Shown one piece after another: positions 5,718-36,559 of a stretch of DNA of 64,000 nucleotides; the stretch's first letter is position 1, and every line of letters starts with the position of its first letter. This stretch comes from Granulicella sp. WH15 (GTDB lineage Bacteria; Acidobacteriota; Terriglobia; Terriglobales; Acidobacteriaceae). The DNA lies in NCBI RefSeq assembly GCF_009914315.1, contig NZ_CP042596.1:682001-746000 (forward strand), in the 5' to 3' direction. A model generated the notes under the pieces. The model worked only from the letters and a program-made list of their open reading frames with translations. It searched no databases and had not been told where the DNA came from. The translations under genes and the position numbers were made by a program.

Positions 5718-7283
5718 ATGAAGCGGATTGCGAGTTTTTTCCTGCTGCTGATGATGAGCGGCACGGCGGCGGCACAGGACGGCATGGCCGCGCAGATTGC
5801 GGCGTTGGTCGCCGAGCCTGCCGTGGTGCGGGCGCACTGGGGCGTGGCCGTGGCGGGGCTCGATGGGGAGAGGATCTTCGGGCTGAACGATGGGCAGCTC
5901 TTCCAGCCAGCCAGCAACGCCAAGCTGTTTACGACGGCGGCGGCGGTGCATCTGCTGGGGGAGTCGCAGCGGTTTACTACGGTGGTAGAGGGGCCGCCGG
6001 GTTCGGCTGGGGCAAAGGTGTTGAGGGGCGACCTGACGTTGCGCGGAGCGGGCGATGCGAACCTCTCTGGCCGCACGGTGCCATATGCGGGGCCTGCAGG
6101 GGCTGACGCGGCTGCGTTGCGTTATCTGGAGGAGCTGGCCGACGGTGTCGCGGCGGCGGGTGTTCAGCGGATCACCGGGGATATTGTGGGCGACGATACA
6201 CGCTTTCCGTGGCAGCCCTACGGGGCGGACTGGGCCGTGGACGACCTGCTGTGGGGGTACGGTGCGCCCGTCTCGGCGTTGAGCGTGAACGACAACCAGA
6301 TTCGGCTGAAGGTGACGCCGGGTGTGAGCGCCGGGGAGGCCGCTACGGTGGAGCTTGATCCGGCGGTGCCGTACTACACGGTTGCCGCGTCGGTGCGGAC
6401 GGTGGCGGCGAAGAGTGCGGCTGCGGTGGAGATCGAGCGCGACCCCGGCTCGAAGGTGCTGCGGGTCTCGGGGACGATTGCGGCGCGGTCGGGAGTCTAT
6501 GCGGAGGAGATCGCCATTCAGGACCCGGCGGAGTACGCCGCGATTGCGTTGAAGGCGATGCTGGAGGCTCGCGGGATTCGCGTGGATGGACGTGCCCGCA
6601 GCGAGCATCGGGTGATCCCGGAGCCGGTGAGTTTTTTGAAGGAGACGCGGGAGCCTCTGCCCGGCCTGCCTGTTGAGCCATTGGGAGGCGTGAGCAGGCT
6701 GCTTACCGGGAAGGGCGTCTGCATGGATGCCTGCCCGCTGCGGGTTGAGCATACTTCGTTCACGGTTATCGAAGACGTGACCGTGGCTAACAAGGTCAGC
6801 CAGAACCTGCATGCGGAGCTGCTACTGCACCAGTTGGGCAAGAGCTTCGGCAATGACGGCTCGACGGCGCAGGGGGCGCGGGTGGTGCGGCAGTTTCTTA
6901 TCAATGTGGGGCTTGATAAGGACGATTTTGTGTTCTACGACGGCTCGGGGCTGAGCGGGCACGACTTGGTGACGCCGAGGGCGACGGTGCGGCTGTTGAC
7001 CTATGCAGCGCGGCAGCCGTGGTTTGCGGAGTGGAAGGCTTCGCTGCCGGTGGGTGGCGTGGACGGGTCTTTGTCGGGGCGCTTCGCCAAGGCTCCGCTT
7101 CTCGGTAAGGTATTGGCGAAGACGGGGACGCTGGGTGAGGCGCGGGCGCTGAGCGGGTATGTGGTGTGTGCGAGCGGGCGGACGGTGGCGTTCTCGGTGA
7201 TGGTGGGGAACCATGCGCCGGGTACGAGTGCGGACAGGGATGTGATGGACCGGATTGTGGCGACGATCGCGGCAGCGAATTGA
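5718..7283 (+). CDS. dacB: D-alanyl-D-alanine carboxypeptidase/endopeptidase (PBP4 type)
   Basis: This 521-residue exported penicillin-binding protein trims peptidoglycan peptides or cuts cross-links in the periplasm. A signal peptide (MKRIASFFLLLMMSGTAAAQ) precedes the domain. The serine nucleophile is in the SNAK (SxxK) motif of QPASNAKLFTTAA. The second motif region reads DGSGLSGHD, and the third is the KTG in LAKTGTLGEA. The long insert between motifs 1 and 2, typical of PBP4, is present. It is divergent from folP and is followed by a repeat cluster. Confidence 0.93.
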   Translation: MKRIASFFLLLMMSGTAAAQDGMAAQIAALVAEPAVVRAHWGVAVAGLDGERIFGLNDGQLFQPASNAKLFTTAAAVHLLGESQRFTTVVEGPPGSAGAKVLRGDLTLRGAGDANLSGRTVPYAGPAGADAAALRYLEELADGVAAAGVQRITGDIVGDDTRFPWQPYGADWAVDDLLWGYGAPVSALSVNDNQIRLKVTPGVSAGEAATVELDPAVPYYTVAASVRTVAAKSAAAVEIERDPGSKVLRVSGTIAARSGVYAEEIAIQDPAEYAAIALKAMLEARGIRVDGRARSEHRVIPEPVSFLKETREPLPGLPVEPLGGVSRLLTGKGVCMDACPLRVEHTSFTVIEDVTVANKVSQNLHAELLLHQLGKSFGNDGSTAQGARVVRQFLINVGLDKDDFVFYDGSGLSGHDLVTPRATVRLLTYAARQPWFAEWKASLPVGGVDGSLSGRFAKAPLLGKVLAKTGTLGEARALSGYVVCASGRTVAFSVMVGNHAPGTSADRDVMDRIVATIAAAN

Positions 7284-33113: not shown

Positions 33114-34046
33114 TTACGTATTCTGCGGCTCTACCGACTTGAAGCCATACGTCTCATACCGCGTCGTCAGCCTGCCGTTCGCGACGCTGACCACGGTGAA
33201 CCCCTCCGGCGTGCCCATGCGCGTGCCGTGCCACCAGTTGCCGCACACCGCGCCCGAGGTGATGTACGGAACCCCGTGCCAGACCACCTGCTCGTTGATG
33301 TGGGTATGGCCCTGCAACACGCCGAGAACGTTGTGCCCCTCGAAGAGCTTGATCGCCTCCGGCCCGTTGACGAAGGTAAACCCGCTCGGCGAGGACTGCG
33401 GCGCGGGCGGCGTGTAGCTGTTCATCGCCGTCACCAGCGGAATGTGGGTGGTGACGATGATCGGCGTGCCCGCGGGCGTCGCGGCCAGATCGTTGGCCAG
33501 CCACTGCATCTGGTCGGCGTCGATGCGTCCCTGGTAGTGGTGGTCGTCCGTGATGCCGATGGAGTCCAGCACGATGAAGTGATGACCCTTGTGGTCGAAC
33601 GAGTACCAGGTGGGGCCGAAGCGGTCGGCGAAGAGCTTCTTGCCGTAGAGCGGGTCGGTCGGCGGCACCCCGCCGCTGGGGTAGATGCCGAGGACGTCGT
33701 GGTTGCCCAGCGTGTGGTGGACCTTCAGCCCCAGATCCTGCTCGGCCTTGTCGTAGAGCGAGTAGTTCTGGAGCACCGTGGCCTTGGGCGTGCCCAGCGC
33801 ATCGAAGATGTGGTCGCCGCCCTGGATGGCGAAGTCGGCGCGGAGGCTGCGCGCGTGCTTGAAGGCCATGGTGGTGCCGTCGACGCCGCGAAGCTCCGGC
33901 TGAAGATGCGAGTCGGTGAGGAAGAGGAAGCTGAAGTCCTCCTGCTTCGGAGCGGCAAAGGCCAGCGCGGAAGAGGGCAGCGCAGCGGCGGCGGCTCCAG
34001 CGCCCAGCAGCGAGAGGAATTGGCGGCGATTGAACGAGGACGGCAT
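33114..34046 (-). CDS. Tat-exported metallophosphoesterase
   Basis: The product has 310 residues from the ATG at 34046; an open extension to 34253 lacks sense and overlaps the VKOR promoter. A twin-arginine signal (NRRQFLSLLG, Ala-rich core) leads to a calcineurin-like domain: FLTDSHL (D-x-H), QGGDHIF (GGD), HTLGNHDV (GNHD), ITTHIPL-like VTTHIPLV and LQGHTHIN (GHxH). All metal ligands are present. It probably hydrolyses phosphoesters in the periplasm; the substrate is unknown. A TATCAT box lies seven bases upstream. Confidence 0.88.
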   Translation of the reverse strand: MPSSFNRRQFLSLLGAGAAAAALPSSALAFAAPKQEDFSFLFLTDSHLQPELRGVDGTTMAFKHARSLRADFAIQGGDHIFDALGTPKATVLQNYSLYDKAEQDLGLKVHHTLGNHDVLGIYPSGGVPPTDPLYGKKLFADRFGPTWYSFDHKGHHFIVLDSIGITDDHHYQGRIDADQMQWLANDLAATPAGTPIIVTTHIPLVTAMNSYTPPAPQSSPSGFTFVNGPEAIKLFEGHNVLGVLQGHTHINEQVVWHGVPYITSGAVCGNWWHGTRMGTPEGFTVVSVANGRLTTRYETYGFKSVEPQNT

Positions 34047-34053
34047 GTGGGGA

Positions 34054-34059
34054 ATGATA
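34054..34059 (-). promoter_or_regulatory. TATCAT -10-like box before the metallophosphoesterase
   Basis: The complement reads TATCAT, seven bases, then ATG, with no ribosome binding site. Confidence 0.4.
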
Positions 34060-34129
34060 GCGGACGATGGTGCCGAATGCGTCACAGATCTGTCAAAGGA
34101 GCAGAGCGTTCGATAAAAGAGACGAAGGA

Positions 34130-34135
34130 TAAAAT
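34130..34135 (+). promoter_or_regulatory. TAAAAT -10-like box before VKOR gene
   Basis: TAAAAT, six bases, then ATG at 34142. No Shine-Dalgarno sequence lies between. Confidence 0.5.
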
Positions 34136-34141
34136 AACCGG

Positions 34142-34600
34142 ATGCGAAATATGGTGTTGCGAGTCCTGATTGCTGCGCTGGCTCTGGCCGGTCTGGTGGT
34201 AAGCGTAATGGCCCTGCGGGTGCACAACATGGACCCGGCTGCCGCGCCGCCATGCGCCGTCAGCGAGCACTGGGACTGCGGCGCGGTGAACCACTCGCGC
34301 TTCGCCGTCTTCCCGCCGCGTTCCTACGACGAGGACGCGGGCAGCAAGAAGCTGCACATCCCGGTGGCGACGGTGGGGATCGCAGGCTACTCGCTGATGC
34401 TGGTGCTGGCGCTGCTGGGCCGGTTCTGGATCGTCCTGCAACTGGCCGAGATCGGCTTCGCTGCGGCCTGCTTCCTCAGCTATCTTGAGGCCTTCGTGCT
34501 GGAGAAGTGGTGCATCTACTGCGTCTGGTCGCAGGGCATCGTTACGGTGCTGCTGCTGACGACGGTCGCGGCGCTGATCCTGCGGCGGCGAGAGGCGTAA
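34142..34600 (+). CDS. Vitamin K epoxide reductase (VKOR) family protein
   Basis: The product has 152 residues with four membrane helices. The active-site pair is in EKWCIYCVW (C-x2-C), and a loop Cys with conserved Ser/Asp neighbours is in HWDCGAVNHS. Bacterial VKORs pass electrons from thiol partners to menaquinone or ubiquinone and so support periplasmic disulfide formation. A fused thioredoxin domain, common in other bacteria, is absent. The next gene, nine bases on, is an MqnC-like protein, a second link to menaquinone. Confidence 0.88.
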   Translation: MRNMVLRVLIAALALAGLVVSVMALRVHNMDPAAAPPCAVSEHWDCGAVNHSRFAVFPPRSYDEDAGSKKLHIPVATVGIAGYSLMLVLALLGRFWIVLQLAEIGFAAACFLSYLEAFVLEKWCIYCVWSQGIVTVLLLTTVAALILRRREA

Positions 34601-34603
34601 AAT
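34598..34603 (+). promoter_or_regulatory. TAAAAT box overlapping the VKOR stop codon
   Basis: TAAAAT contains the VKOR TAA stop and lies six bases before the ATG at 34610. The MqnC-like gene may have its own leaderless promoter as well as read-through. Confidence 0.45.
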
Positions 34604-34609
34604 TTCCTT

Positions 34610-35527
34610 ATGGGTATCAGTCGGGAACAGGCGCTGGATTGCTTTGCAAGTGATGATCTGATCGGGATTGGGATGGAGGCGGACGCCGTGCGTCGGCAGC
34701 TTCATCCCGAGGGAGTGGTCTCCTACCTGGTCGATGGGACGGTAGACGTGGCGGAGATGGCCGCCGAGACCGCGAGCTTCGACACCATCTACACCCGCAT
34801 TGGCACCATCGTCGAAGCGGGCGGCACGGGGATACGGCTCGCGGGCACCTCCTCCAGCCAGTTCACGATGGAGCGGCTCGAAGGTCTGCTCGCCGCCATC
34901 AAAGACCGCTTTACCTCACTGTGGGTACAGGGCTTCAGCGCGGGCGAGATCCTCGCTCTGGCCAATCGTGCAGGCATCTCCGTGGCCGATACCATCCAGC
35001 GGCTCCAGACCGCTGGGTTGGACTCGATCCCCGGCACGCCCGACGTGGAAGGCTGGGCGGACGTCCACCGCACCGCGCACCGGCTGGGCATGAAGACTTC
35101 GGCGGCGATGATCTTCGGCGCGGGCGAGACGATGGAGCAGCGCGTGGCCCAGCTCGAGGCGATCCGTCAGCTCCAGGCCGAGACCGGCGGCTTCACGTCC
35201 TTCGTCCCCTACACCTTCCAGCCCAGTGGCGCGCAGCGCGCAGGCGGTCTCGAAGAGGCCACGGCGGTCGAGTACCTCAAGACCCTGGCCATCGCGCGCA
35301 TGTACCTCGACAACATCGAGAACGTGCAGGCCAGCGTCGAGACGCAGGGGCTGAAGGTAGTGCAGATGGGGCTGCGCTTCGGCGGCAATGATGTGGGCAG
35401 CGCGCTCTCGGGCGCGGCGGGATACACGTCTGGCGCGACCGAAGAGGAGCTGCGGCGCATCATCCGCGACGCCGGTTTCAAGCCCGCGCAGCGTGATCCG
35501 CTCTATAGAATGATGTTCCTGAACTAA
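34610..35527 (+). CDS. MqnC-like protein lacking the radical-SAM cysteines
   Basis: The 305-residue protein aligns along its whole length with MqnC, the dehypoxanthine futalosine cyclase of menaquinone synthesis: MGISREQAL and GMEADAVRRQLHPEG at the start, VEAGGTG, GLDSIPG, TGGFTSFVPYTFQP, TAVEYLKTLAIARMYLDNI and RFGGNDVGS. At the cluster site MqnC has C-x3-C-x2-C between a YI-[IV] strand and FY. Here the same spacing reads MAAETASFDTIY, with Ala51, Ala55 and Asp58 in place of the three Cys. The only Cys in the protein is Cys11. Some 20 residues after the cluster site and another 20 after SIPG are missing. The frame is intact, so this is probably a paralogue with a new role rather than a decayed gene. 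Confidence 0.8.
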   Translation: MGISREQALDCFASDDLIGIGMEADAVRRQLHPEGVVSYLVDGTVDVAEMAAETASFDTIYTRIGTIVEAGGTGIRLAGTSSSQFTMERLEGLLAAIKDRFTSLWVQGFSAGEILALANRAGISVADTIQRLQTAGLDSIPGTPDVEGWADVHRTAHRLGMKTSAAMIFGAGETMEQRVAQLEAIRQLQAETGGFTSFVPYTFQPSGAQRAGGLEEATAVEYLKTLAIARMYLDNIENVQASVETQGLKVVQMGLRFGGNDVGSALSGAAGYTSGATEEELRRIIRDAGFKPAQRDPLYRMMFLN

Positions 35528-35547
35528 ACAGATCGCAGAGGACAGGC

Positions 35548-36393
35548 ATGACGGTTCAGGAGGCGTTGACCCGGGGCACCGGCCAGCTTGCGGCGCACCC
35601 GCAGTTGCGCGAGCGCGCGTTGCAGGACGCGGCGCTGCTGCTGATGCACACGCTCGGTATCTCGCGCACGGCGCTGATCGCGCACCCGGAGCGGATCTTT
35701 ACGCGTGACGAGCAGGCCGCCTACCAGCGGGCCATCGAGCGACGTCTCACCTTCGAGCCGATCCAGTACATCACCGGCGAGCAGGAGTTTTACGGGCTTC
35801 CGTTTCATGTAACATCTTCGGTGCTAATTCCACGGCCCGAGACCGAGCTGCTCGTAGAGGCAGTATTGGCGCGGGTTTCCGGCGCTGGCCGCATTGTGGA
35901 CGTGGGCACTGGCTCGGGTGCGATTGCGGTTGCGCTGGCTAAATATCTGCCCCATGCGGCTGTCACTGCCGTCGATCTTTCTCCAGCGGCACTCGCTGTT
36001 GCGAGAGAGAACGCCGCGCACAATCAGGTCGCGATCACGTTCGTCGAGTCCGATCTGCTGGCTGCGTTGAAAGATGAAGCCCTCTTCGACGCCATCGTCT
36101 CGAACCCCCCGTATATCCCCGAGGATGATGCAGCCTCGTTGCACCCTGAGGTGCGCGAGTACGAACCCTCGCAGGCGCTCTTTGCCGGAGCGACGGGAAT
36201 GGATGTGTACGCCCGGCTGGTGCCTCAGGCCGAGCGGCATCTGAGGCCGGGCGGCCTGCTCGCAATGGAGATTGGCTTCGGGCAGCGCGAGCCGATTGCG
36301 CAGTTGCTGACGGGCTGGCAGGATGTCGAGTTCCTCGATGACTTGCAAGGGATTCCCCGCGTAGCCCTGGCGCGGCGGCATCAAGAGTCGTAA
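35548..36393 (+). CDS. prmC: Release factor glutamine methyltransferase
   Basis: The 281-residue enzyme methylates the GGQ glutamine of RF1 and RF2. The substrate-binding N-terminal helical domain is followed by a Rossmann fold with VDVGTGSGAIAVAL (SAM), AVDLSPAAL, and the catalytic SNPPYIP. IPRPETELLVE is also typical. It lies 20 bases after the MqnC-like gene and may be cotranscribed; AGAGG precedes the ATG. Confidence 0.94.
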   Translation: MTVQEALTRGTGQLAAHPQLRERALQDAALLLMHTLGISRTALIAHPERIFTRDEQAAYQRAIERRLTFEPIQYITGEQEFYGLPFHVTSSVLIPRPETELLVEAVLARVSGAGRIVDVGTGSGAIAVALAKYLPHAAVTAVDLSPAALAVARENAAHNQVAITFVESDLLAALKDEALFDAIVSNPPYIPEDDAASLHPEVREYEPSQALFAGATGMDVYARLVPQAERHLRPGGLLAMEIGFGQREPIAQLLTGWQDVEFLDDLQGIPRVALARRHQES

Positions 36394-36559
36394 TCGGTTA
36401 CATAATCTTAGGCCGCTTGCCTCGCCGTTCTGGCGTCCAGGTTACGGAGGATACCTCCAGGGCTCAACTTCCCGCTGAAGTACTCTGCCTCCTCTGCCGA
36501 TACACCTCTTATGGAGGAAGCCCAGCCAGCAGGCCAGTCCTGGGCAACGGAAGGGGGCG

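Follow-up and report, generated by a model that had tools for sequence, protein, structure and literature searches.

A 64,000-nucleotide stretch of the Granulicella sp. WH15 genome (contig NZ_CP042596.1, positions 682,001 to 746,000; hereafter the window) carries a gene derived from mqnC (34610..35527, + strand) whose product has lost the 4Fe-4S cluster motif (CxxxCxxC) of radical S-adenosylmethionine (SAM) enzymes. We find that the N-terminal 40 residues and the C-terminal part of this Cys-less MqnC are under purifying selection, whereas its catalytic core is relaxed. The gene is a positional orthologue of canonical MqnC, and its Cys-less state is tied to the presence of a divergent MqnC with an intact CxxxCxxC, for which we use our own label, MqnC2. 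As a whole, these observations are best explained if MqnC2 took over catalysis and the old MqnC was kept as a non-catalytic binding or scaffold pseudoenzyme, an account to which we give about an even chance.

The open reading frame starts with ATG, is uninterrupted, and encodes 305 residues; it lies in a genome of a single 4.67-Mb contig that is 99.8% complete. The protein matches the MqnC profile TIGR03699 at 240 bits (E = 3e-71), short of the equivalog cut-off of 428.1 bits. It passes the gathering score of PF19288 (CofH_C; 68 bits against 27) and fails that of PF04055 (Radical_SAM; 13.1 bits against 29.5). Its only cysteine is residue 11, and CxxxCxxC is absent. An earlier note on this DNA had described an intact MqnC homologue with one cysteine and no cluster motif, and this description holds. 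The predicted fold is a barrel of the radical-SAM type, although the cluster motif that marks the superfamily is missing along with its loop. A good fold was predicted both for the 305-residue protein and for a natural 179-residue half-barrel. Because the cluster motif is lost, cyclisation of dehypoxanthine futalosine by this protein is implausible, judging from its sequence.

The active site was lost by deletion. When 48 Cys-less and 99 canonical MqnC sequences are aligned, the window protein lacks the bulk of the cluster loop (reference 55-74), with the break at residues 54/55 (34769..34774, +). Two further stretches are missing: reference 165-181, which adjoins the GGGAE motif, at residues 144/145 (35039..35044, +), and reference 308-312, in the canonical NVVKAAG loop, at residues 269/270 (35414..35419, +). 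Against the 99 canonical sequences, the residues FDTIY (57-61) of the window protein align with reference 77-81. The stretch holding the last two cysteines is thus among those deleted; only Ala51 stands opposite a cysteine position, and residues 55 and 58 are unpaired with the old cysteines. The replacement of the three cysteines at 'exact register' by Ala51, Ala55 and Asp58, as the earlier note had it, is a coincidence of ungapped numbering, and the alignment rules out in-register Cys-to-Ala/Asp substitution. Reference 51-70 is gapped in 92 to 95% of the Cys-less rows (means over tens, n = 48).

Across the Cys-less rows, 63 positions that are near-invariant in canonical MqnC have been lost, including the cluster motif, GGGAE and NVVKAAG. 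A further 49 positions are kept in at least 46 of the 48 rows, and at all of these except L219 (48/49) the residue is the commonest canonical one. Only four positions have a non-canonical residue in at least 30 of the 48 rows. Alignment, selection and predicted fold together delimit an N-terminal module of two helices and the first strand (residues 1-40; 34610..34729, +), which has an identity of 0.85 to the canonical consensus. The C-terminal module (residues 213-305; 35246..35524, +), comprising the last part of the barrel and the C-terminal tail inside PF19288, is conserved except for the lost NVVKAAG loop. Thus, the ends have been held and the active site is gone.

Selection follows the same division. 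We pooled Nei-Gojobori ratios of nonsynonymous to synonymous divergence (dN/dS) over pairs with dS of 0.1-0.8 (62 Cys-less pairs, excluding genome G301, and 173 canonical pairs). For reference segments 1-40, 41-200, 201-300 and 301-348, Cys-less dN/dS was 0.15, 0.41, 0.28 and 0.17, and canonical dN/dS was 0.14, 0.15, 0.09 and 0.05. Over the whole gene, the Cys-less value was 0.30 (pair median 0.25, range 0.08-0.93) and the canonical value 0.11. More distant pairs (dS 0.8-1.3) gave 0.12, 0.47, 0.27 and 0.21 for Cys-less genes (185 pairs) and 0.15, 0.12, 0.09 and 0.07 for canonical genes (1745 pairs). Among the twelve closest Cys-less pairs, the eight without G301 had dN/dS of 0.08-0.20.

Loss of the cysteines coincides with MqnC2. 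We surveyed 398 Acidobacteriaceae genomes with a threshold of E ≤ 1e-100 for MqnC2; note that these genomes are related, so the figures are counts and not independent events. MqnC2 was present in 54 genomes from 7 of 79 genera. The exact motif pattern of canonical MqnC matched 295 genomes, including only two of the 54 with MqnC2 (G351 and G207). The old locus could be retrieved in 52 of these 54 genomes: it is canonical in G351 and G207 and Cys-less in the other 50, the source genome included. The 50 copies comprise 47 intact reading frames of 266-334 residues, one in-frame form of 178 residues (G301), and, in G279 and G325, two copies interrupted by N runs; none has an unambiguous inactivating mutation. 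No old-locus gene was recognised in G099 and G306 (85% and 84% complete), where a very divergent copy could be missed. Among the 344 genomes without MqnC2, at least 293 have the canonical motif, a lower bound because the pattern misses variants such as CTEFC. For the remaining 51, the 15 closest matches were 14 variant or fragmentary canonical genes and one Cys-less gene (G273); the other 36 genomes had only more distant matches, not classified one by one, or none.

Sequencing error or frameshift is ruled out by Cys-less copies at the same locus in 50 genomes. With dN/dS well under 1 and no unambiguous inactivation in any of the 50 copies, the gene very probably encodes a selected non-catalytic protein rather than an error or a decaying remnant, in agreement with the earlier note. 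The two yardsticks proposed in that note diverge: genomes of the same genus do have normal cysteines at this locus (e.g., G034, G130 and G351), but dN/dS is not near 1. Pseudoenzymes have lost catalytic residues and retain their fold under selection. We find both lost catalytic residues and purifying selection on the rest of the protein; unlike pseudoenzymes in general, however, the catalytic half of the barrel has also been physically eroded, down to a half-barrel of 174-185 residues. Among the titles and abstract openings listed from the open-licence literature, we found no description of a Cys-less MqnC.

The gene occupies the native mqnC locus. A VKOR-family gene lies directly upstream (34142..34600, +) and prmC directly downstream (35548..36393, +). 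A same-strand VKOR gene precedes the Cys-less gene at 30 of 48 loci, compared with 19 of 98 canonical loci. A glycosyltransferase gene that we call GT2-like, a label from reading its sequence with no family search made, lies downstream of the Cys-less gene, in the same orientation, at 46 of 48 loci, usually no more than about 1 kb away. It also follows 49 of the 90 canonical loci that have at least 1.5 kb of downstream sequence. G378 and the source genome are the two whose Cys-less loci do not have it, and nothing in the 64-kb window matches the GT2-like protein. Given VKOR upstream and, in relatives, the GT2-like gene downstream, the Cys-less gene shares its genomic position with canonical mqnC, and the source genome has no other close MqnC. 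It is therefore not a paralogue, as the earlier note had supposed. The Cys-less gene begins 9 nt past the VKOR stop, so the two genes are likely co-transcribed. A sigma-70 promoter scan of 33900-36500 returned 0 sites, which leaves the -10-like box ascribed to this gene in the earlier note without support, and an Rfam scan of the same interval gave no match.

The source genome has two further family members at E ≤ 0.001. One, at a separate locus (L002), is MqnE, with 500 bits (above the TIGR03700 cut-off) and the motif CVASCRLC. The other (L003) is MqnC2, located elsewhere in the genome, with the motif CVAQCDYC. MqnC2 shares 26-32% identity with the window protein and scores 308 bits to TIGR03699, for which canonical MqnC (P0012) scores 447.6 bits. 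Because its score is below the cut-off, its MqnC activity can only be inferred. MqnC2 evolves slowly (dN/dS 0.11-0.14, from 20 and 86 pairs). Its closest relative outside the family, among 199 genomes of the phylum, has 60% identity (G576), with all others at 43% or less. This distance, together with its patchy presence across genera, suggests that MqnC2 was gained horizontally.

The 336-residue reading of MqnC2 (L003 1303-2313; G000:C1:1218834-1219904) begins at a TTG, the first ATG, GTG or TTG after a stop. The protein record P0240 of the source genome (358 residues) begins 22 residues upstream, a start shared by relatives of similar length, and the shorter reading may be truncated. A split enzyme, with an MqnC2 lacking its own N-terminus, is ruled out by the N-terminal extension of the usual type in P0240 and six relatives (of at least 118).

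For five Acidobacteria proteomes, a published table (PMC3914697) gives MqnA 5, MqnC 5, MqnD 5 and MenC 4, with MenF and MenB left without an entry. The source genome has two genes of PF02621 (MqnA/MqnD family). Each of the 54 MqnC2 genomes has such genes, as does every one of the 17 tested genomes of the same genus that lack MqnC2. Among the 54, there were two matches in 51, three in G378 (two being pieces of one gene), and one each in G306 and G337. A PF02621 gene lies less than 1 kb from MqnC2 in G378, G395 and G397, which supports a menaquinone role for MqnC2.

In genomes with MqnC2, the old MqnC has lost its iron-sulphur, GGGAE and NVVKAAG elements and kept its frame open. We propose that MqnC2 took over the radical cyclisation step and that the old protein is retained as a non-catalytic pseudoenzyme. 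Its working unit, an N-terminal helical hairpin plus a C-terminal half-barrel, would act as a scaffold or regulator by binding another macromolecule, for which a futalosine/menaquinone pathway enzyme is the most likely candidate. That the N- and C-terminal modules are the functional part is probable; that the partner belongs to the menaquinone pathway has slightly less than an even chance. The earlier note's suggestion of a protein that binds a menaquinone precursor loses weight, because two pocket loops, GGGAE and NVVKAAG, are missing and the natural half-barrel forms lack most of the barrel.

Several observations weigh against this proposal. MqnC2 falls below the TIGR03699 cut-off (308 versus 428 bits), scored from a start that is possibly 22 residues short. 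Pooled Cys-less dN/dS is 2.6 times the canonical value (0.30 versus 0.11), and the four closest pairs that include the 178-residue G301 form reach 0.64-0.87; part of the Cys-less protein is therefore relaxed. G273 (93% complete) has a Cys-less gene, and MqnC2 was not found there. Finally, G576 (family f67) has the 60%-identical relative of MqnC2 and two PF02621 genes. A search of G576 with canonical MqnC (P0012) gave no further match at E ≤ 1e-20, not even MqnE, so MqnC2 is not obviously partner-dependent; the explanation for this genome is either a gap in the assembly or an unusual futalosine pathway.

We weighed four alternatives. A moonlighting remnant unrelated to menaquinone, in which an older second function of MqnC (e.g., with a neighbouring gene product or RNA) alone was kept, is possible but unlikely. 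Since 48 of the 49 kept positions are canonical, the retained function may predate MqnC2, and the frequent GT2-like gene downstream of both Cys-less and canonical loci fits such a role. However, the N- and C-terminal parts are conserved in the window despite its lack of a GT2-like match, and VKOR was found adjacent in none of the 16 Cys-less rows from other genera. Thus, no single neighbour accounts for retention. It is improbable that the old pocket now serves a new non-radical enzyme or a small-molecule sensor. Such a role would be consistent with a core dN/dS of 0.41, still below 1, and with the barrel fold predicted for the 305-residue form. It sits poorly with the few shared new residues (the four positions noted above), the lost pocket loops, and the 174-185-residue forms without most of the barrel.

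That the gene is redundant and slowly decaying, only not broken so far, is very improbable, although this would fit the lost catalytic parts, the relaxed core, single pairs with dN/dS up to 0.93, and the core drift in both genomes that have MqnC2 and canonical MqnC. About 2.6% of all single changes in the gene create a stop. With dS up to 1.3 in the pairs used, an unselected gene of 305 codons should have gathered many stops, yet 47 of 50 copies are open; of the other three, one is short but in frame and two are interrupted by nothing but runs of N. Furthermore, dN/dS at the N-terminus is the same as in the active enzyme. Least credible of all is that the DNA or mRNA matters rather than the protein, through translation coupling or a promoter for downstream genes: the gene does stand in a tight same-strand row with its neighbours, but the conserved ends carry many synonymous changes (dS 0.45 and 0.68, with dN/dS 0.15 and 0.17), there is no Rfam match or promoter-like site in 33900-36500, and the ends are conserved in the window genome despite a different downstream gene.

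The most far-reaching reading is that MqnC itself has a further role beyond catalysis, seated in the unit of N-terminal hairpin and C-terminal half-barrel, and that the two functions became separated once a second MqnC was present. We put this just short of even. If true, an enzyme of the futalosine pathway doubles as an essential scaffold or regulator. The radical core would have eroded, in one group until a stable half-barrel was left, with the second function surviving in nearly all genomes that have a second MqnC. Nature would then have run a separation-of-function experiment in dozens of genomes, with the radical-SAM catalytic core removed and the ends retained. This points to an unrecognised role of MqnC, and the half-barrel of 174-185 residues would offer a handle for a partner search.

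Possible intermediates are found among canonical genes. At 244 positions conserved in canonical MqnC, G351 has 13 deviations and G207 has 7, with a median of 1 over canonical rows. In these two genomes, which have both MqnC2 and canonical MqnC, all deviations fall within 41-252 (hypergeometric P = 0.0012 and 0.029). Other deviating canonical rows are L080 (25 deviations, 19 in the core) and L090 (7), with MqnC2 status untested for both. In Granulicella sp. dw_53 (L033, match 6001-7056), a canonical MqnC with the motif CTEHCTFC has 13 unusual changes, all in the core, and is probably an early stage of the same loss.

At the other extreme, a search with the G301 protein (best 120 of 1562 rows) gave 118 new proteins, at least 19 of which are forms of 174-185 residues in which the first 40 residues, a single beta-alpha unit and the C-terminal part remain. 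Among the matches listed, 233 of 238 distinct proteins lack CxxxCxxC (the window's own included). Many of these listed Cys-less proteins are named 'cyclic dehypoxanthinyl futalosine synthase' without the cluster motif, which is a misannotation.

The number of origins differs between trees. The MqnC tree (90 rows) gives two changes, but many of its forks are weak and many branches long. When it was restricted to conserved columns and the long rows G040, G066 and G389 were excluded, one Cys-less clade was not rejected (approximately unbiased test, p-AU = 0.71). The tree of the adjacent VKOR (54 rows, some being the same gene under two handles) rejects one Cys-less clade (p-AU = 1e-6) and gives seven changes, of which well-supported branches force only two. 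The VKOR gene itself may have moved, so we do not claim convergence as shown.

Among known relatives, the window protein is closest to MqnC (TIGR03699; mostly 348 residues in its canonical acidobacterial form), with which it shares the locus, the N-terminal 40 residues, the C-terminal part and the overall barrel fold. It differs in lacking CxxxCxxC, GGGAE and the NVVKAAG loop, and in its 240 bits against a cut-off of 428.1. The aminofutalosine synthase MqnE (PDB 6xi9, 6xig) shows 26% identity in the alignment. MqnC2 belongs to the same superfamily and is the likely stand-in for the lost activity; unlike the window protein, it keeps the full radical-SAM motif. Two side observations concern other loci. 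Both canonical and Cys-less mqnC are linked to a gene for a GT2-like membrane glycosyltransferase (e.g., L235 2262-3926). In G194, a genome with neither the canonical motif nor MqnC2, an MqnC-like gene is flanked by two PF02621 genes (G194:C1:4819666-4822352).
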